Positions 849 through 17,630 of a stretch of 20,827 bases of DNA are shown here, one piece after another. Origin of the DNA: a virus. Position 1 is the stretch's first letter. Each line of letters opens with the position of its first letter. The notes beneath the pieces were generated by a model. The model was not told the DNA's origin, did not search any database, and saw nothing but the letters and a program-made list of their open reading frames with translations. The stretch spans positions 1-20,827 of IMG/VR virus record IMGVR_UViG_3300009079_000153; one strand, given 5' to 3'. The position numbers were made by a program, and so were the translations under genes.

Positions 849-1026
849 GATTGTCAGACAAATCTGAGTAAAAAGACTGAGTATCTGGGTTAAATTTTGT
901 TCCTACGGGAATATCATTTAGCCCAGATATTTCTTTTATAAAGGCTGCTTCGGCTTCTGGGGAAACATCAAATGTAGCCTGAACTACATTGTCTACTATT
1001 AGGGCAAAACTTCTTGGCTCTGTCAT
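817..1026 (-). CDS. Small tail-module protein, 69 aa
   Basis: The protein begins MTEPRSFALIVDNVVQATFD and contains VPVGTKFNPDTQSF-like residues (IPVGTKFNPDTQSF). It resembles the short phage proteins of the form 'I-V-x-N-x-V ... VG..Y/F.....F' that sit beside fibres, but the function is unknown to me. The start is the ATG at 1024-1026, which overlaps the stop of the preceding gene as TAATG, with GAGGAG as ribosome binding site. A longer in-frame start upstream would overlap the zinc-ribbon gene almost completely and is less likely. Its 3' end overlaps the endolysin end by 32 bases. Confidence 0.6.
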   Translation of the reverse strand: MTEPRSFALIVDNVVQATFDVSPEAEAAFIKEISGLNDIPVGTKFNPDTQSFYSDLSDNPIQESDSSIL

Positions 1027-1268
1027 TACTCGATCTCCTCTGTATATAGTTCTTTCTCTTTGCCCCATTTTCCTATAGGGCATTCTGCATGTGGGAGTTT
1101 TGTTTTTGCTTCCATAAAACAACCACACTTTTTGCACTGCTTGGTCATCTTAATCAAATGCTTACATCCTAGACAGGCAGCAAGTCTTGCTTCTGCAACC
1201 TCTGGCTTGACCCTACCAATATTTTTATTAAACATATCCCAAGGTCTTACTGGTTTGTCTTCTGACAT
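1026..1268 (-). CDS. Zinc-ribbon protein (DUF6171-like), 80 aa
   Basis: Cysteines at 32, 35, 45, 48, 50 and 63 make the pattern C-x2-C ... C-x2-C-G-C ... C-P-I-G-K-W. This looks like the DUF6171-type short zinc proteins found next to glycosyltransferases in phages and surface-polysaccharide loci. It is a clear paralogue of the gene at 2195-2422: both share QCKKCGCFM and CPIGKW. The two copies flank the glycosyltransferase 1299-2216. The start is the ATG at 1268 behind AAGGGAG. A TGA-TATAAT extended -10 (1288-1296, minus strand) gives a leader of about 13 bases. No function is established; a cofactor or scaffold role for the glycosyltransferase is only inference from position. Confidence 0.75.
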   Translation of the reverse strand: MSEDKPVRPWDMFNKNIGRVKPEVAEARLAACLGCKHLIKMTKQCKKCGCFMEAKTKLPHAECPIGKWGKEKELYTEEIE

Positions 1269-1298: not shown

Positions 1299-2216
1299 TC
1301 AAGAATCTAGGTGATCTTGATCTACAAAGCAGTCTATCCAGGACTGTAGTGAAGAGATGTCTATTAAAGAGTATCGTTCGTCAGCCAAATTACCAGTATA
1401 AAAATCATTCAGTCTCTGAGCAGATGCCTGGTCATTTTTGATGTGAGCCTCTTGATCTCCATCCCACTGCCTTTTTCTTTTTTTACCGCTGTAATCATGA
1501 AAAATATAATTCCTTGGCGGGGCAATTAACTTAACCCCTTTTTCATAAAACCTAATAGAAAGGGTTTGCTCCTCTCCATTAAAATATATACATGGATCAT
1601 ATCTAGTATTTAAAAAAGACTCTGTTTTTCCAAAAACCATGCCTGCACAAAAGTATCCAGTAAGCATTCCAAAATCTTCTCCAATATACTCTGTATATTT
1701 ACAGTTATATCTTAGTGTCTCACTTTCTGAAATTACCCCCTTTACTGCAGTAGGTCTTTCAAATTTATCAGAATAAGTGTTTCCATATTCATCATAAACA
1801 TAACCTTGTGGGTAAGAGGTCAGGATGATCTCACTTGTCCAATTACTATAACATTTTTTATAATCATCAACAAGCATCTCGTCCCAGTGTTCAGCAAATC
1901 TTGAGTGGCTATCAATTTGCAAGAAGAAGTCATGCTCAGGCTTAATAAAATCTTGAATGTAATTTCTTGCGTATCCTACTCCAGAAGAATCTACATAGTT
2001 GATCTTTTTATATGTGTAGTCTGATACTCCAAATAGGTCAAACAGATTTTCTAGTTTTGGATGTTTGTCATCTTCATCCTGAGAAAAAATACAAACGTGA
2101 ATCTTGCCTAAGTCTTTTGCTTGAGATAATAGACTATACAGGGTGTTTGTTAATTCAGCATCACGGAATGATGCTATAGAAACAAATATGCTATCTACCA
2201 CTTTCCGATTGGACAT
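1299..2216 (-). CDS. GlcNAc-type glycosyltransferase (PF11397/GT60-like), copy 1
   Basis: This 305-residue protein has IFVSIASFRDAELTNT near the N-terminus (about 10-25), the typical opening of the PF11397 GlcNAc-transferase family, and FFLQIDSHSRF with the acidic D-S-H metal/nucleotide motif at 102-104. Characterised members of GT60 transfer GlcNAc to hydroxyproline or threonine of cytosolic or mucin proteins. It shares both blocks and the order of features with the rightward gene 9678-10670. I chose the ATG at 2216 because a GAGG lies 7 bases upstream and the longer ORF would be read through the preceding gene; the genes still overlap by 22 bases. The likely substrate is a virion protein made from the same operon, in particular the poly-Thr adhesin, but this is inference. 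Confidence 0.8.
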   Translation of the reverse strand: MSNRKVVDSIFVSIASFRDAELTNTLYSLLSQAKDLGKIHVCIFSQDEDDKHPKLENLFDLFGVSDYTYKKINYVDSSGVGYARNYIQDFIKPEHDFFLQIDSHSRFAEHWDEMLVDDYKKCYSNWTSEIILTSYPQGYVYDEYGNTYSDKFERPTAVKGVISESETLRYNCKYTEYIGEDFGMLTGYFCAGMVFGKTESFLNTRYDPCIYFNGEEQTLSIRFYEKGVKLIAPPRNYIFHDYSGKKRKRQWDGDQEAHIKNDQASAQRLNDFYTGNLADERYSLIDISSLQSWIDCFVDQDHLDS

Positions 2217-2422
2217 GTTGCTGCCTCTAGACCTGTTTTGATTTTCATGAAGCAGCCACACTTTTTACATTGAGAGGTTACCTGTATCAATTCTGGGCAG
2301 GCTTTGCATATCTCAAACCTTTCCTCCCCCAAAGTCTTTTCTGCTTTTTTTGTTTTTGGGTTAAGCAAATCTAATGGAGTTACTCCATTTTTTGCTTTGT
2401 ATTCTTCCCAACGACTTGTCAT
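2195..2422 (-). CDS. Zinc-ribbon protein (DUF6171-like), paralogue, 75 aa
   Basis: Cysteines at 39, 42, 52, 55, 57 and 70 repeat the arrangement of the gene at 1026-1268, ending in CPIGKW at the very C-terminus. The N-terminal part (MTSRWEEYKAKNG) differs. It lies directly upstream of, and overlaps by 22 bases, the glycosyltransferase start, which suggests coupled translation. AGGA lies about 6 bases before the ATG. Function unknown; probably a structural zinc site. Confidence 0.75.
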   Translation of the reverse strand: MTSRWEEYKAKNGVTPLDLLNPKTKKAEKTLGEERFEICKACPELIQVTSQCKKCGCFMKIKTGLEAATCPIGKW

Positions 2423-2435
2423 TGTTTATCCTATT

Positions 2436-2816
2436 CTACGGTAGAAAATCAGTAACGTCTTGATTTAAAATTATAAACTTCTCACCATCAAACTGTGCGT
2501 TTGGAGATTGTACATACCTGCCATATGGGTAGTCTGCTAGATCCAATATCTGTGGGCTGCTTAAAAGAATACTTCCAAAATATTCAGAGGTATTAAAATC
2601 TTCTAAAGTAACTCCATTATTAATTAATCTCACAGTGATTCCTTCATTATCTGGATACTCATTTGATACATCAAGTATATCAGTTGTTGCTAAGAACATG
2701 CTTGCATAGTTTTTATTTAATGGAAGATCATACAAACATTCTCCATCAATCACCCACACTAATGCCTGCCCCTTACCTTGATCAGACTGAAACTCTATAT
2801 CTATATCATTAATCAT
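2436..2816 (-). CDS. Hypothetical tail-module protein, 126 aa
   Basis: An acidic, soluble protein beginning MINDIDIEFQSDQGKGQALV with no cysteine-rich or membrane segment apart from ordinary beta-rich stretches. I do not recognise the family. It sits between the big adhesin and the zinc-ribbon/glycosyltransferase pair in the same leftward operon, with AAAGGAG just before its ATG and 13 bases after its stop to the next start. A fibre accessory or chaperone role would fit the position, but nothing in the sequence proves it. Confidence 0.6.
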   Translation of the reverse strand: MINDIDIEFQSDQGKGQALVWVIDGECLYDLPLNKNYASMFLATTDILDVSNEYPDNEGITVRLINNGVTLEDFNTSEYFGSILLSSPQILDLADYPYGRYVQSPNAQFDGEKFIILNQDVTDFLP

Positions 2817-2828
2817 TTATTTTCTCCT

Positions 2829-4865
2829 TTATAGGTAAGCACATCTATATTCAACTCCTGATGTACATATTGAACCGCTACCGCAACCTCCGCTGCTGCA
2901 TCCTTGAGATACACAGTCTTGGTTCGCAACGTTAAATGATGTACAAAGTCTGGATACCTCTTGTGCTGCAGTTGTTGTAGTCGTAGTTGAACCAGTAGCA
3001 ACACAACCTGTGTCAGTAGTAACATTATCGCATGTTCCTGGAGTCCAACAAGTATAAGTGTTCATTGTTCCAGAAGCACATACAGATGTTGAAACAGATC
3101 TTGTGCCAGTGTAACTTCGTGCTGGATCGCAAGTATTTCCAGAGCAGTCAAGGCCTGTTGTTGTCGTGGTTGCAGGGGATGCTGTTGTCGTTGTCGTGGT
3201 TGCAGGGGATGCTGTAGTTGTGGTAGTCGTTGGAGCAACTGTGGTTGTAGTAGTAGTTGGAGCAACTGTGGTTGTAGTAGTAGTTGGAGCAACTGTGGTT
3301 GTGGTAGTTGTTGCAGCACCACTTGTAGAAATAGAAGCACTGGCATCTGCTAAATAGCCGTTGTTAGAATTTTTTGCGGTAACAAAAACTGTATGTAAAG
3401 TGTTTGGAGCAAGACCAGTAAATGTCTTAGATGTTGACCCTGTTGTTTCTGATGGATAGACTGCATCATTATCAGAGTATTGAACAGTATAGAATGCAGT
3501 TCCTGCTGGAGGGTTTGACCAAGAATAAGTTACAGAATTTGTAGTTGAAGATATACCGCTAATAGTAAATGCACCTGGTGCTACAGTGGTTGTAGTTGTA
3601 GTTGTAGGTGCTACAGTAGTTGTAGTTGTAGTTGTATTTACAGGTGGACAACTTGTTGGTGCTGCAGGCTGAGAAACTATTGAAACCGAAATACTTGTTG
3701 CTGGAGGATTTAAACCTTGAAGAAATGAAGTGTAGGCAGCAATTGCTTGGTTAATATCTTGTACAAGCGTGTTATCGGAATTAACAGGATATGATTCTTC
3801 TACAGGGGTTCCGAGGAAGCAATATGATAGATACGCTGTACCAGTTGCTGGTGCTGCAGTTGTTGTAGTAGTTGTTGTAGGGGCAACCGTTGTAGTGGTA
3901 GTTGTAGTTGTTGTAGGGGCAACCGTTGTAGTGGTAGTAGTAGGATTATTTGCAGGATTTGCAGTAAATGTTGATGAACCAGTAGAACTTGTATACCCAT
4001 CCTTAGATGCAGTTATATAAACCGTATAGGATTGATTTGGTGTTAAATTTTCAACAATAAATTCTTCGGGGAATTCGGGATTCTGAGTTCCAAGAGTAGA
4101 AGTATAAGTTGTTGTATATGTTGAATCAAAGTTAGTTATGTTAAATGTTGCATATACTGATCCTGGATAAACTTGCCAGCCAGCATATGTTTGAATTACT
4201 GGTGTTGGTAGTGTTGGAAGTGGTGCAACAGTTGTTGTAGTTGTTGTAGTTGTAGTTGTAGGAGCAACTGTAGTAGTAGTTGTAGTAACAACTGGGTGAG
4301 CAAAAGTAATGGTTTGTGAGTTTCCAGCACCAGCACTATTTATCACAGTTATAGTGACTGTATAAGACTGCCCTTCAGTCAAGTTAACAAGGTTTCCTGG
4401 CCATGTTGCAGTGTATGCTCCATAGTTGTATGGTGATGGATATAAAGATGAGTTTCCAGTAAACAGATAATTATTTATATTGCTTCCAGACCAAGAAAGA
4501 GTTCCAGTAGTAGTACCAGTTTTTGTATATGTTAAATTACTTATAGTTGCAACTGGGGCTGATGTTGTTACAGGTCCACTGCCACCGCCAGAAGTTGTTG
4601 TGGTAGTTGTTGTTACTGCTACATAGTTATAAATAGAAAGATCAACAGTGGTTTCATAATCAACTAGAGTTCCAGATGCAGGAGTTTGTAGTGCAACCTT
4701 ATTTGATAGATTAGAGTCTGATGTTGAGGTTGTAGAAATAATTGAGGCAACAGTCAGTCCTGCTGATTGTATTGCTGAAATTGCTTGTGCCTGTGTAAGT
4801 CCAGAAAGATTTGGTACTAAGACCATACCTTTTGATGAAGACCATAAGCCAAGGAATCCAAGCAT
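2829..4865 (-). CDS. Large adhesin/tail fibre: PASTA, fibronectin-III-like domains, poly-Thr linkers
   Basis: This 678-residue protein is a modular surface fibre. Residues about 14-78 look like a PASTA domain (VPNLSGLTQAQAISAIQSAG), which in other proteins binds peptidoglycan stems or cell-wall surfaces. Fibronectin-III-like beta domains follow at roughly 103-190, 217-302 and 430-517, with a separate domain at 343-409 (one Cys pair). They are joined by runs of 5-10 threonines in the form TTTTTTVAP (about 85-91, 194-212, 309-337, 411-428, 519-570, 627-632). The C-terminus is cysteine-rich (573-621 and 641-675), probably a disulfide-bonded receptor-binding tip. It is far longer than its neighbours. 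The Thr/Pro-rich linkers resemble mucin-type O-glycosylated stalks, and a GlcNAc-type glycosyltransferase lies 0.6 kb downstream. The coding DNA is a set of short tandem repeats and may vary in copy number. Confidence 0.8.
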   Translation of the reverse strand: MLGFLGLWSSSKGMVLVPNLSGLTQAQAISAIQSAGLTVASIISTTSTSDSNLSNKVALQTPASGTLVDYETTVDLSIYNYVAVTTTTTTTSGGGSGPVTTSAPVATISNLTYTKTGTTTGTLSWSGSNINNYLFTGNSSLYPSPYNYGAYTATWPGNLVNLTEGQSYTVTITVINSAGAGNSQTITFAHPVVTTTTTTVAPTTTTTTTTTTVAPLPTLPTPVIQTYAGWQVYPGSVYATFNITNFDSTYTTTYTSTLGTQNPEFPEEFIVENLTPNQSYTVYITASKDGYTSSTGSSTFTANPANNPTTTTTTVAPTTTTTTTTTVAPTTTTTTTAAPATGTAYLSYCFLGTPVEESYPVNSDNTLVQDINQAIAAYTSFLQGLNPPATSISVSIVSQPAAPTSCPPVNTTTTTTTVAPTTTTTTTVAPGAFTISGISSTTNSVTYSWSNPPAGTAFYTVQYSDNDAVYPSETTGSTSKTFTGLAPNTLHTVFVTAKNSNNGYLADASASISTSGAATTTTTTVAPTTTTTTVAPTTTTTTVAPTTTTTTASPATTTTTTASPATTTTTGLDCSGNTCDPARSYTGTRSVSTSVCASGTMNTYTCWTPGTCDNVTTDTGCVATGSTTTTTTAAQEVSRLCTSFNVANQDCVSQGCSSGGCGSGSICTSGVEYRCAYL
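3232..3312 (-). repeat. 27-base tandem repeat coding TTTTTTVAP
   Basis: Three copies of a 27-base unit (3232-3258, 3259-3285, 3286-3312); the first two are identical and the third differs at a few third-codon positions. Each codes nine residues of a poly-Thr stalk. A 30-base unit with GCAGGGGATGCT is duplicated next to it (about 3168-3213), and similar units lie at about 3590-3630 and 3850-3940. The in-frame period means that gain or loss of units changes stalk length without a frameshift. Confidence 0.85.
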
Positions 4866-4871
4866 CTGATC

Positions 4872-5501
4872 CTACGCTTTCAAATCGCCAATAAGAATCC
4901 ATGCATTTGTATCATCTTTTACTAAAACAGCGCCAGACCATTGTGCTGCAATTTTTCTATTTGAATTCTTGCTATAAAGAGTCACTCCTGCTGCAGGTGC
5001 GATAGATACTTCTCCACTACCTTTTCTAACAATCTCAATTTTTTGTCCAACGACAAATGGGATTGTTGCATAAGATGGAATAGTAATTGTTACGTTAGAC
5101 GATGACTCAACTCTAATTGTTTTTCCAGCATCTAAAAGAACTATTTGATAGTCTGCAGTTTTGGTTTCAAGCCAGCAAGAGTCATTATAGTTTCTCCACT
5201 TACCAGCATGATAATATTGAATTTGATTAATTTGATTTCCTGATGCATCTTGTCGTACAAAAACAACAAGGCCTTCAGGGGGTGCGGTGATTACAGCATC
5301 TCTAACTGTTGATGTTGCAAAATTATTTACTCCTGCTTTTGATACAACAACATCATTTAAAGATACTGTAGAACCAAATGAGTGTGCTCCTGACCAGTCA
5401 AAATTTGCTGCTGCATTTGTAGTTCCAGAAACTGGATACCAAGTATCAGTACCTTGATCATAAATGTATGCTGTTTTACCAACGCTACTAGTTGTTGCCA
5501 T
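4872..5501 (-). CDS. Minor tail protein/fibre with conserved C-terminal beta domain, 209 aa
   Basis: The N-terminal half (MATTSSVGKTAYIYDQGTDT) resembles the short attachment part of actinophage fibres. The C-terminal half, from about residue 117, matches a beta-domain common in phage minor tail proteins: AGKTIRVESSSNVTITIP, then VGQKIEIVRKGSGEVSIAP, then AAQWSGAVLVKDDTNAWILIGD. Its start overlaps the end of the 38-residue gene upstream by 14 bases and its stop is followed within 7 bases by the adhesin start. It belongs to the virion tail tip. Confidence 0.75.
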   Translation of the reverse strand: MATTSSVGKTAYIYDQGTDTWYPVSGTTNAAANFDWSGAHSFGSTVSLNDVVVSKAGVNNFATSTVRDAVITAPPEGLVVFVRQDASGNQINQIQYYHAGKWRNYNDSCWLETKTADYQIVLLDAGKTIRVESSSNVTITIPSYATIPFVVGQKIEIVRKGSGEVSIAPAAGVTLYSKNSNRKIAAQWSGAVLVKDDTNAWILIGDLKA

Positions 5502-7105: not shown

Positions 7106-7837
7106 TTATACCACGCTGACGTAGATAGAATTAAGGATTACGGATGCGTCAAAATCTGTTCTTAATTGAGGAACTGCTCCGTTACCCCACATTTTTTGGT
7201 TTTCAATAAATACCTGCTGTGTGATAGATATGTTGTAGGTGTGTTGATATTTAAAAGACCCTACTAGGTGTGCAATTTCCTGCTCGTGTGATGGAAAGAA
7301 GGTTCTCATCCAGACTTCAGTATTTTGAGTAAAGGTTGTCAACTCTAGGTTGTAAGTTACAAAAACTTGAGATCCTATTTTTAGTCCTTTAAAATTTAGC
7401 ATTCTTGAGTGTGGATTCCATAGACTTACACAGTCCTTTGGCAAAAATTCCTCATTCTTTTCTCCATCAGAGATGTATAGGCTTACCCATCCGTCAGTTC
7501 CTCTTGTTGCTCCTAGCCTAATCTCAATTTCAGAATCTGTAAAATATGAAGACCAACCTGCTTGTTGACCTGAAGAAGATAAAGAACTTAATCCGTTTTG
7601 TCCAGAAGATCCTTTTTCTCCCTTTTGTCCCTTTTGTCCTTCTGGGCCTTGAGGTCCAACTGATCCATCTTTTCCATCTTTGCCATCTCTACCTGCGGGA
7701 CCTTGAGGACCTTGTGGTCCAGGTACTGGAAGAAATGATAGTGTATTCTCTTGGTATGTATTTTGATTCTGTTCTACTTGCGCTGCGTAGCCAGACTTTT
7801 TTGCACTGGGAAAGTCCATAGATTTAGAAGCAGCCAT
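7106..7837 (-). CDS. Collagen-like tail fibre, 243 aa
   Basis: Residues about 38-82 are Gly-x-y triplets (GPQGPQGPAGRDGKDGKDG, then GPQGPEGQKGQKGEKG), a collagen-like triple-helical stalk that trimerises the fibre. Before it is a 37-residue attachment segment and after it a beta-rich domain of about 150 residues that carries IEIRLGATRGTDGWVSLYIS and ends in ILNSIYVSVV. Such fibres are common in tailed phages and hold receptor-binding domains. It is the second long gene of the tail operon and follows the 28-residue gene by 20 bases. Confidence 0.8.
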   Translation of the reverse strand: MAASKSMDFPSAKKSGYAAQVEQNQNTYQENTLSFLPVPGPQGPQGPAGRDGKDGKDGSVGPQGPEGQKGQKGEKGSSGQNGLSSLSSSGQQAGWSSYFTDSEIEIRLGATRGTDGWVSLYISDGEKNEEFLPKDCVSLWNPHSRMLNFKGLKIGSQVFVTYNLELTTFTQNTEVWMRTFFPSHEQEIAHLVGSFKYQHTYNISITQQVFIENQKMWGNGAVPQLRTDFDASVILNSIYVSVV

Positions 7838-8910: not shown

Positions 8911-9681
8911 ATGAAAACAGCCATAATCAATACCCTGCAGCATTCGACAAATCTAATTATATCCCCAGATGCAGATGGAATTCTTTCAGCAGAGTTTTTA
9001 AATCGACATAACGGTTCTAAAGTCGTCGGCACATACGACAAAAATATTTTATGTCTCGCCGATGGTATAGATCCGTCAGAATGTTTGTTTGTTGATTGCG
9101 ATATGAATCGTTCGGAATATGTGTCAATCGGAAATCATATGAGGCTTTTAGTCGACGGGATGGCACTAAACTCGTTTAATCCGAATGTACACTTCGCCGA
9201 AAAGATATACACTAACAAGTTCCCATACGCAACCGCTTTTTTAATCGCCGACGCGATAGAGGTTCCTACATCTCACTCTGACCATCTACGCATGGCATAT
9301 GCAGATTCGACTCTAAGAAACATGGAGTCGTATGCAAGGAATATGCGAGCATGGTCTACTCGGATGAGCCATCCTTCTATTGACTACATTATTGAGAATT
9401 CTCCAGAATCTATTGAAGCAGATAATCTATTTAGAAAAACCCAAACAAGCCAAGCATTGGTTTCTAAGAGGTTTGGAAAGGCTAGGTACATAGATACCCT
9501 AAACAATGCCTTTGAACTCTCTGGTGTGCCCTTTGAGCCGATTTTAGACGGTAAGAAGTACGTGTCCGACAAGGTAGGTATTAACACGGTAATGAGATAT
9601 AGTAAGGATATAATTTCTTATGCTGAAGTATATATGGGAGAGTATTCTGTTACATATGATGAAGAGGTTGATTGGAAATGA
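8911..9681 (+). CDS. DHH-type phosphoesterase-like protein with degenerate active site
   Basis: This 256-residue protein has the outline of the DHH/RecJ phosphoesterase fold. Motif I is IISPDADGILSAEF (about 16-29), where the usual His before the Asp pair is Ser18 and Asp20 and Asp22 remain. Motif II is FVDCDMN (60-66). Motif III reads NHM (75-77) where the family has DHH. The following FNPNVHF and KFPYATAFLIADAI resemble the conserved Asn-Pro and helix after motif III. So part of the metal site is kept and part is lost; it may act on a nucleotide or single-stranded nucleic acid, or only bind it. The start is ATG 8911 (a TTG at 8902 is in frame; AGGAG at 8894-8898 is 3 bases from the TTG and 12 from the ATG). 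It overlaps the glycosyltransferase gene by 4 bases. Confidence 0.55.
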   Translation: MKTAIINTLQHSTNLIISPDADGILSAEFLNRHNGSKVVGTYDKNILCLADGIDPSECLFVDCDMNRSEYVSIGNHMRLLVDGMALNSFNPNVHFAEKIYTNKFPYATAFLIADAIEVPTSHSDHLRMAYADSTLRNMESYARNMRAWSTRMSHPSIDYIIENSPESIEADNLFRKTQTSQALVSKRFGKARYIDTLNNAFELSGVPFEPILDGKKYVSDKVGINTVMRYSKDIISYAEVYMGEYSVTYDEEVDWK

Positions 9682-10670
9682 TTCGTATACCTTCGATTCC
9701 TCCGCTAGTTGGTAAGGTTAATGCTCCAAAGATAAATACAAACCAAAACATAAAAACAATTTTTATTTCTATTGCAAGTTATCGAGATCCAGATCTTGTG
9801 AATACAGTTAGAAATGCCTATGAGAATGCTGCATTTAAAAATAGGTTGTTTTTTTCTATTGTTTCCCAGGCTGCCCCACAAGAACATCCAGATCTTTCTT
9901 TTATTCCAGAAGAACAACTAAGATATGAAAAAATTTCTTGGCAAGAAAGCCAGGGAGCATGTTGGGCAAGAGAAATTGCATCTAGAAGAATTGAACACGA
10001 TTATTATTTACAAATAGATTCTCATTCTAGATTTATTCCAAACTGGGATAAGGTTGTTCTTGAAAATTATGTTATGTGTGAAAAACATTGGGGATCTGAT
10101 ATAGCCTTTACCATGCACCCAAGAGGTTTTAGAAGAAACCACGAAACTGGAGAAGAAAACTTTTATGATTTTGGAAAGAAGCCACTAGTCGGTTTTATGG
10201 GCTGGAAAGAAGGAGAGTCAATGCCATGGCCAATATGGTATGACGTTGAGTACTCTAAGTACGGATATGAAGCCTACTTCCTTTGTGCTAACTCCTTGTT
10301 TTGCGATGCAAAAATTATAAAGGCTATTCCATATGATCATCAACTGTACTTTATTGGCGAAGAACCAACCTTGGCCTTGAGGTTTTATACCAGGGGAGTC
10401 AAATTGATCAACCCATCTTTCCATTATATGTGGCATGCCTATAACGACGAGTACAGAACAGATAAGAGAAGGCTACACTGGGATGATAACCCCGATTGGG
10501 ATAACATGAACGGGCATTCTTATAATAGGGCTGCTAAGATTCTAACTGGGGATATGTCTTTAGGCGTATATGGCATAGGCTCAAAAGAATTATATGATCA
10601 GTTCCAGGAAAAATCTGGAATTACCCTGCATGATAAGCGTGAACATATCATAGGTCACTATAAGGTATAA
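9678..10670 (+). CDS. GlcNAc-type glycosyltransferase (PF11397/GT60-like), copy 2
   Basis: This 330-residue protein has TIFISIASYRDPDLVNTVRN (about 28-46), FFSIVSQ (58-64), LQIDSHSRFIPNWD (111-124) with the acidic DSH motif at 114-116, and IGEEPTLALRFYTRGVKL further on. These are the hallmarks of the PF11397 family, and the first, third and last blocks are shared with copy 1 at 1299-2216. I use the ATG at 9678, which overlaps the stop of the DHH-like gene as ATGA, for coupled translation. It is on the opposite strand to the tail genes and next to a methyltransferase, so it might modify virion proteins, host envelope or a small molecule. The acceptor is unknown. Confidence 0.8.
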   Translation: MIRIPSIPPLVGKVNAPKINTNQNIKTIFISIASYRDPDLVNTVRNAYENAAFKNRLFFSIVSQAAPQEHPDLSFIPEEQLRYEKISWQESQGACWAREIASRRIEHDYYLQIDSHSRFIPNWDKVVLENYVMCEKHWGSDIAFTMHPRGFRRNHETGEENFYDFGKKPLVGFMGWKEGESMPWPIWYDVEYSKYGYEAYFLCANSLFCDAKIIKAIPYDHQLYFIGEEPTLALRFYTRGVKLINPSFHYMWHAYNDEYRTDKRRLHWDDNPDWDNMNGHSYNRAAKILTGDMSLGVYGIGSKELYDQFQEKSGITLHDKREHIIGHYKV

Positions 10671-13040: not shown

Positions 13041-13136
13041 CCCCCCCTATATACACACCCCCTATACAGGTACCCCTATATAGGTACCCCCATACAGGTA
13101 CCCCCCCATACAGGTACCCCCTATGTATATACCCCC
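13041..13136. repeat. C-rich tandem (iteron-like) array
   Basis: Seven runs of 4-7 C on the plus strand begin at 13041, 13058, 13073, 13087, 13101, 13117 and 13132, spaced 14-17 bases. The best unit is CCCCCTATACAGGTA, with GGTACC formed at several junctions. The minus strand is G-rich. The array lies between CGCCGAT (13026-13032) and ATCGGC (13147-13152), which elsewhere form a close hairpin or sit singly. Confidence 0.85.
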
Positions 13137-13155
13137 TATATAGATCATCGGCAAA

Positions 13156-17575: not shown

Positions 17576-17610
17576 TGTGGATAACTGTTGTGGATAACTC
17601 TTGTGGATAA
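17576..17610 (-). promoter_or_regulatory. Three DnaA boxes at 13-base spacing
   Basis: TGTGGATAA, the reverse of the consensus TTATCCACA, occurs at 17576-17584, 17589-17597 and 17602-17610. All three face the same way. This is the best DnaA-box cluster in the window. Confidence 0.7.
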
Positions 17611-17614
17611 CTCT

Positions 17615-17630
17615 TGTGACTACTATCACA
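17615..17630. promoter_or_regulatory. CRP/GlxR-like site, perfect
   Basis: TGTGACTACTATCACA, beginning 4 bases after the last DnaA box. Centre is 85.5 bases before the predicted start at 17708. Confidence 0.65.

Follow-up and report, generated by a model that had tools for sequence, protein, structure and literature searches.

A PF11397/GT60-type glycosyltransferase gene beside a threonine-rich phage fibre and its possible role in stalk glycosylation

The GT60 (PF11397) polypeptide alpha-GlcNAc-transferases comprise the Skp1 and Golgi enzymes of Dictyostelium and the mucin initiator of T. cruzi, and they lack a C-terminal ricin-like domain; in the Skp1 pathway of prolyl hydroxylation and glycosylation fusions of the enzymes are also known (PMC8724618). 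In mycobacteriophages, phage glycosyltransferases modify the C-termini of capsid and tail tube proteins (Freeman 2023, as cited in PMC12619734). In the library that we searched, the literature on poly-Thr stalks, on PF11397 and on prolyl hydroxylase together with phage glycosylation contained no account of a phage module for stalk glycosylation. To our knowledge, only a few examples of phage enzymes that glycosylate virions have been described.

Here we analyze a stretch of 20,827 nucleotides of viral DNA (the window), which encodes a fibre with threonine stalks and a nearby glycosyltransferase, GT1. The phage enzyme scores well over the cut-off of the same Pfam family as the GT60 enzymes, has an acidic-X-His motif and no ricin domain, and mucin-like or potentially hydroxylated candidate acceptors lie near the phage enzymes. 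The reaction of GT60 enzymes is the transfer of alpha-GlcNAc from UDP-GlcNAc to Thr or hydroxyproline of a polypeptide. Unlike its GT60 counterparts, GT1 is phage-borne, has about 305 amino acids and is encoded beside its putative acceptor. As in the Skp1 pathway, a prolyl-hydroxylase-type gene accompanies PF11397 in four viral records (L268, L281, L308 and L315), and in the last three PF11397 is fused to OFucT. However, in the phages a repetitive stalk of viral origin would serve as acceptor, and the window phage has no recognised hydroxylase. The mycobacteriophage case is similar in that phage-encoded glycosyltransferases act on virion proteins; it differs in that the citation in PMC12619734, as far as it goes, describes no Thr/Pro stalk.

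The fibre, its operon and the two enzymes

The fibre gene (2829-4865, minus strand) encodes 678 amino acids with a PASTA domain (residues 15-78, 1.8e-10), fn3 domains (6e-12; both Pfam) and 15 threonine runs of the TTTTTTVAP type. The runs are 5-10 residues long and hold 100 of the 184 threonines, and VAP follows directly after nine of them. Their threonine codons are mixed (ACA 44, ACT 38, ACC 11, ACG 7) and resemble those outside the runs. Thus, the runs look as if kept at the protein level and not as a plain DNA microsatellite. The open reading frame and its stalks are real, as originally predicted. Mucin-like acceptors are marked by dense O-glycans and by Thr/Ser/Pro-rich repeats whose composition is kept over their sequence, and such repeats are present in this fibre and its relatives. 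The context supports the assignment of this protein of a freshwater phage as a tail fibre, whereas the original label of adhesin would be putative; no isolate phage matches it. Upstream lie further tail-fibre genes, among them directly adjacent a tail-fibre-like protein (4872-5501, minus strand; tail/virion PHROGs) and a collagen-like fibre with Gly-Pro-X repeats (7106-7837, minus strand; PF01391, 2.3e-8), which is a possible alternative acceptor.

Four genes follow 3′ of the fibre in the same direction, and neighbours either overlap or are separated by 12-30 bp. These code for a 126-aa protein (2436-2816, minus strand), which starts 12 bp past the fibre stop, a Cys-rich and probably zinc-binding DUF6171 protein (2195-2422, minus strand) whose gene overlaps the start of the next one, GT1 (1299-2216, minus strand) and a second DUF6171 protein (1026-1268, minus strand; Pfam). 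From the fibre stop to the GT1 start there are 612 bp, and since the intervening genes overlap or are 12-13 bp apart, it is reasonable to place fibre and enzyme in the same operon. The prediction of a GT60-like gene about 0.6 kb downstream in the same operon thus holds. It had, however, mentioned a single enzyme of this kind. The one at 1299-2216 is real, but the window encodes a second PF11397 enzyme (GT2; 9672-10670, plus strand), which is 33% identical to GT1 and adjoins a DNA methylase gene. GT1 has a DUF6171 paralogue on either side, and other phages likewise place DUF6171 between the stalk gene and the enzyme gene; it might be a helper of this system.

The window region was also found in three phage contigs of 32, 66 and 92 kb. 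The largest carries tail, replication and WhiB genes, and the host is therefore probably an actinobacterium. This contig also holds a second sugar cluster away from the fibre (L022:7016-11601), where a HAD-nucleotidyltransferase fusion lies together with two GT61 genes and others.

By profile both enzymes belong to PF11397 (GT1: 1.1e-41, 143.9 bits; GT2: 3.7e-34, 119.2 bits; Pfam cut-off 21). A DSH motif (D102-S103-H104 in GT1) is invariant across 54 aligned enzymes and resembles the DxH motif of polypeptide GalNAc-transferases. The AlphaFold2 model of GT1, which reaches a pLDDT of 89.8 with the 54 relatives (a model made without an alignment gave 41), has a GT-A fold with an acidic metal motif of the D-x-D/H kind. 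Pfam finds no ricin-like C-terminal domain in its 305 residues. When the model was compared with solved structures by Foldseek, the best PDB matches were TarP/TarS, RmlT and polypeptide GalNAc-transferases. Within the best 50 matches the highest TM-scores (0.61-0.64) belong to PGANT9A, one of the metazoan GalNAc-transferases (GT27), which GT1 resembles in fold but from which it differs by having no lectin domain and no sequence-level match in the PDB; a sequence search of the PDB with the enzyme gave no relative. The best E-value belongs to the teichoic-acid enzyme TarP, which counts against a protein acceptor. The predicted fold thus fits a protein acceptor but leaves room for teichoic acid. 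Among viral structures the best matches come from phages and giant viruses and bear the annotation of GlcNAc glycosyltransferases. Three isolate phages encode matches to GT1, all of them distant. In XacN1 a relative adjoins a carbamoyltransferase and has no fibre close by, which speaks against stalk glycosylation.

Thr/Pro-rich stalks as partners of PF11397 enzymes

With the enzyme profile we collected 79 viral loci, which form 57 clusters at 80% identity. A Thr/Pro-rich stalk gene lies within 10 kb of the enzyme in 35 of the 57 clusters and within 1 kb in 22; often it is the next gene, 40-55 bp upstream. By the same definition a stalk was found at 3 of 120 collagen-fibre loci and at none of 80 loci centred on the GT2 family, a control which replaced a GT61-centred one that was too small (7 loci). 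A stalk gene on the same strand within 600 bp of the enzyme occurs in 20 of the 57 clusters, compared with a mean of 7.8 and a maximum of 16 for random genes of the same loci (2000 draws). The loci are in part not independent: the 21 with an adjacent stalk shrink to 6-8 contexts when joined by 2-3 shared neighbour genes, and single-linkage clustering at 50% identity leaves 9 clusters in which adjacency is no longer significant. In the enzyme tree the short, window-type enzymes separate from the long ones, and each group has stalk-linked members.

In the reverse direction, PF11397 is present in 8 of 50 records with TPTPTPTP as against 1 of 50 with collagen repeats (p=0.03), whereas the counts for the GT2 family (PF00535) are 11/50 and 13/50. 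For TTTTTT(A/V)AP the count is 3 of 50, which is not a significant enrichment over the 1 of 50 collagen records. Poly-Thr stalks thus seem not to need a PF11397 enzyme, though the records are fragments. The pairing of poly-Thr with the enzyme, as originally proposed, must therefore be widened: the comparison of records supports a Thr/Pro-rich stalk as the general partner, poly-Thr being one form of it.

Close relatives of the window phage illustrate this. Records L263 and L264 encode GT1 at 66-69% identity, and in the fibre position L264 has a 362-aa protein with a (TPTPV)n stalk; a globular stretch of 63 residues between its stalks shares 78% identity with the window fibre. In L268 a (PT)n stalk is fused to an N-terminal relative (46%) of the protein 4872-5501. 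It is followed by DUF6171, a clear prolyl-4-hydroxylase-type oxygenase (PF13640, 3e-17; the nearest solved structure is a bacterial P4H of the procollagen type), several sugar genes and a GT2 relative (47%), which here sits in the stalk operon. A collagen-like fibre belongs to the tail operon in the window phage as well as in L264 and L268. The gene order is kept, and within one lineage the repeat has thus changed while its Thr/Pro nature has stayed and a PF11397 gene has remained in the operon. Two of the three poly-Thr records with an enzyme (L502 and L503) repeat the window order of stalk, DUF6171 and enzyme, although their enzymes and GT1 are no more than distant relatives (about 24% identity for L502).

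Past GT1, L263 (1139-3785) and L264 (10949-13556) have three genes that the window phage lacks, for a 193-aa protein (P0002), a 344-aa protein which by eye only is fucosyltransferase-like and matches nothing in Pfam, and an epimerase/GDP-mannose dehydratase-like protein. P0002 matches PF13532 below the cut-off, bears the PHROG label ferrochelatase, has an invariant H-x-D...H and shows no similarity to the PF13640 set; we tentatively regard it as an oxygenase. The same motif, typical of Fe(II) oxygenases, is invariant in members of PHROG 2954 (L264:10949-11530, L268:7138-7710), so that the ferrochelatase label of this family may be wrong.

Two distant phages, L308 and L315, have a gene of the prolyl hydroxylase type that stops 2-3 bp ahead of a gene for a 1039-aa HPAT-OFucT-PF11397 protein, and L281 has the same arrangement without a recognised HPAT match. 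PF11397 is also fused to a Glyco_transf_7 domain (L304). HPAT and O-FucT are families of protein O-glycosyltransferases, and the fusions therefore point to a protein acceptor. From their gene content these cassettes look like a plant/protist-type cassette for hydroxyproline glycosylation. They (L308:1272-8149, L315:6726-13595, L281:5288-10841) also contain another PF11397 gene, tested by Pfam in L308, and a carbamoyltransferase (by Pfam in L308, by resemblance in L281 and L315).

We also considered a general enrichment of prolyl hydroxylases with PF11397 enzymes and dropped it, as PF13640, otherwise common in phages, occurs in 7 of 50 and 8 of 50 records with the enzymes or stalks and in 10 of 50 collagen records. 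A prolyl 4-hydroxylase that shares its genome with the enzyme, as in the Skp1 pathway, was detected in relatives only. The contigs of the window phage have no PF13640, and the 92-kb contig, which is possibly incomplete, has no match to two oxygenase profiles; the window stalk is also poorer in proline than those of the relatives. In L089 (217-12661) four Pfam-confirmed PF13640 genes, out of five matches in the record, lie near a protein with an 18-residue threonine run.

Proposed stalk glycosylation and its alternatives

We suggest that GT1, a GT-A enzyme of PF11397/GT60 type, works in the cytoplasm and would glycosylate the threonine hydroxyls of the TTTTTTVAP stalks of the fibre from the same operon. 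The sugar would probably be GlcNAc, or else a different HexNAc, drawn from the UDP-sugar pool of the host. This would take place before virion assembly, and the dense glycans could hold the PASTA/fn3 linkers extended and shielded. A stiffer or protected stalk or a changed host range, as originally proposed, may be the result. In related phages the Thr/Pro-rich stalk would be the acceptor, and as some of these encode a prolyl hydroxylase, hydroxyproline might be a second one. Phage-encoded mucin-type O-glycosylation of stalk threonines is in our view the best reading and a fairly probable one. That the phage glycosylates its own stalk had been proposed from the window sequence; the idea now gains from the recurrent linkage, the swapped stalk in a kept gene order and the fusions beside prolyl hydroxylases. 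The role of threonine as acceptor may have to be shared with hydroxyproline in some relatives.

GT1 could instead act on a surface glycan of the host (teichoic acid, capsule or similar) like the prophage enzyme TarP, which transfers to poly-ribitol phosphate, with the stalk adjacent merely as a fellow host-interaction gene. TarP and TarS are among its best fold matches by E-value, and further sugar genes (two GT61, HAD/nucleotidyltransferase) occur in the 92-kb contig at a distance from the fibre. The linkage, however, is specific to Thr/Pro stalks and does not extend to fibres or glycosyltransferases at large, and PF11397 occurs in fusions with OFucT and HPAT, both of them protein O-glycosyltransferase families; we therefore consider a host glycan unlikely. 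Slightly more doubtful still is that the target of GT1 or GT2 is a different virion protein and the poly-Thr stalk stays bare. The chief candidate would be the collagen-like fibre, given its recurrence in the tail operons and the procollagen-type affinity of the L268 oxygenase. Yet PF11397 was found in just one of the 50 collagen-fibre records, and no prolyl hydroxylase was detected in the contigs of the window phage.

A chance neighbourhood, in which poly-Thr is a common unglycosylated spacer of phage fibres and GT1 has an unrelated purpose, could explain why there are at least 120 viral TTTTTT(A/V)AP stretches and why most records tested have no PF11397. It is very unlikely in view of the enrichment in both directions with controls and of the conserved order of stalk, DUF6171 and enzyme. 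Glycosylation of hypermodified phage DNA is the least credible proposal, and we hardly believe in it. The DNA methylase beside GT2 and a weak match of GT1 to the TAGT family (PF20691) might suggest it, but this match stays at 17.9 bits below the cut-off of 27.5, as against 143.9 bits for PF11397. On this score we rejected it; moreover the scanned part of the 92-kb contig held no gene recognisable as base-hydroxylating or hydroxymethylating.

The pairing of PF11397 enzymes with stalks across many diverse phages suggests, at the level of gene content, that phages glycosylate their own fibres. It is conceivable, though we would not yet favour it, that complete cytoplasmic modules for mucin- or extensin-like O-glycosylation, dedicated to Thr/Pro-rich fibre stalks, are widespread among tailed phages, so that a protein glycosylation regarded as typical of eukaryotes would be a common phage trait. 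Such a module would consist of a GT60-type initiator and in some phages of OFucT, HPAT-like and galactosyltransferase domains and a prolyl hydroxylase. If such a module is widespread and its acceptor can be recognised, it would account for the frequency of Thr/Pro-rich stalks in the fibres of environmental phages and would add phage members to the functional study of GT60, HPAT and OFucT enzymes. It would also offer soluble cytoplasmic systems, potentially for making mucin-like proteins in bacteria, and it touches on the origin of these eukaryote-type families.

Two further features of the window concern its DNA. At 17576-17618 there are three 13-bp repeats TGTGGATAACTCT, which contain TGTGGATAA, the complement of a DnaA box, and could mark a replication origin. 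Units of the ACCCCCATACAGGT type stand in tandem at 13042-13140 in a gene-poor stretch.
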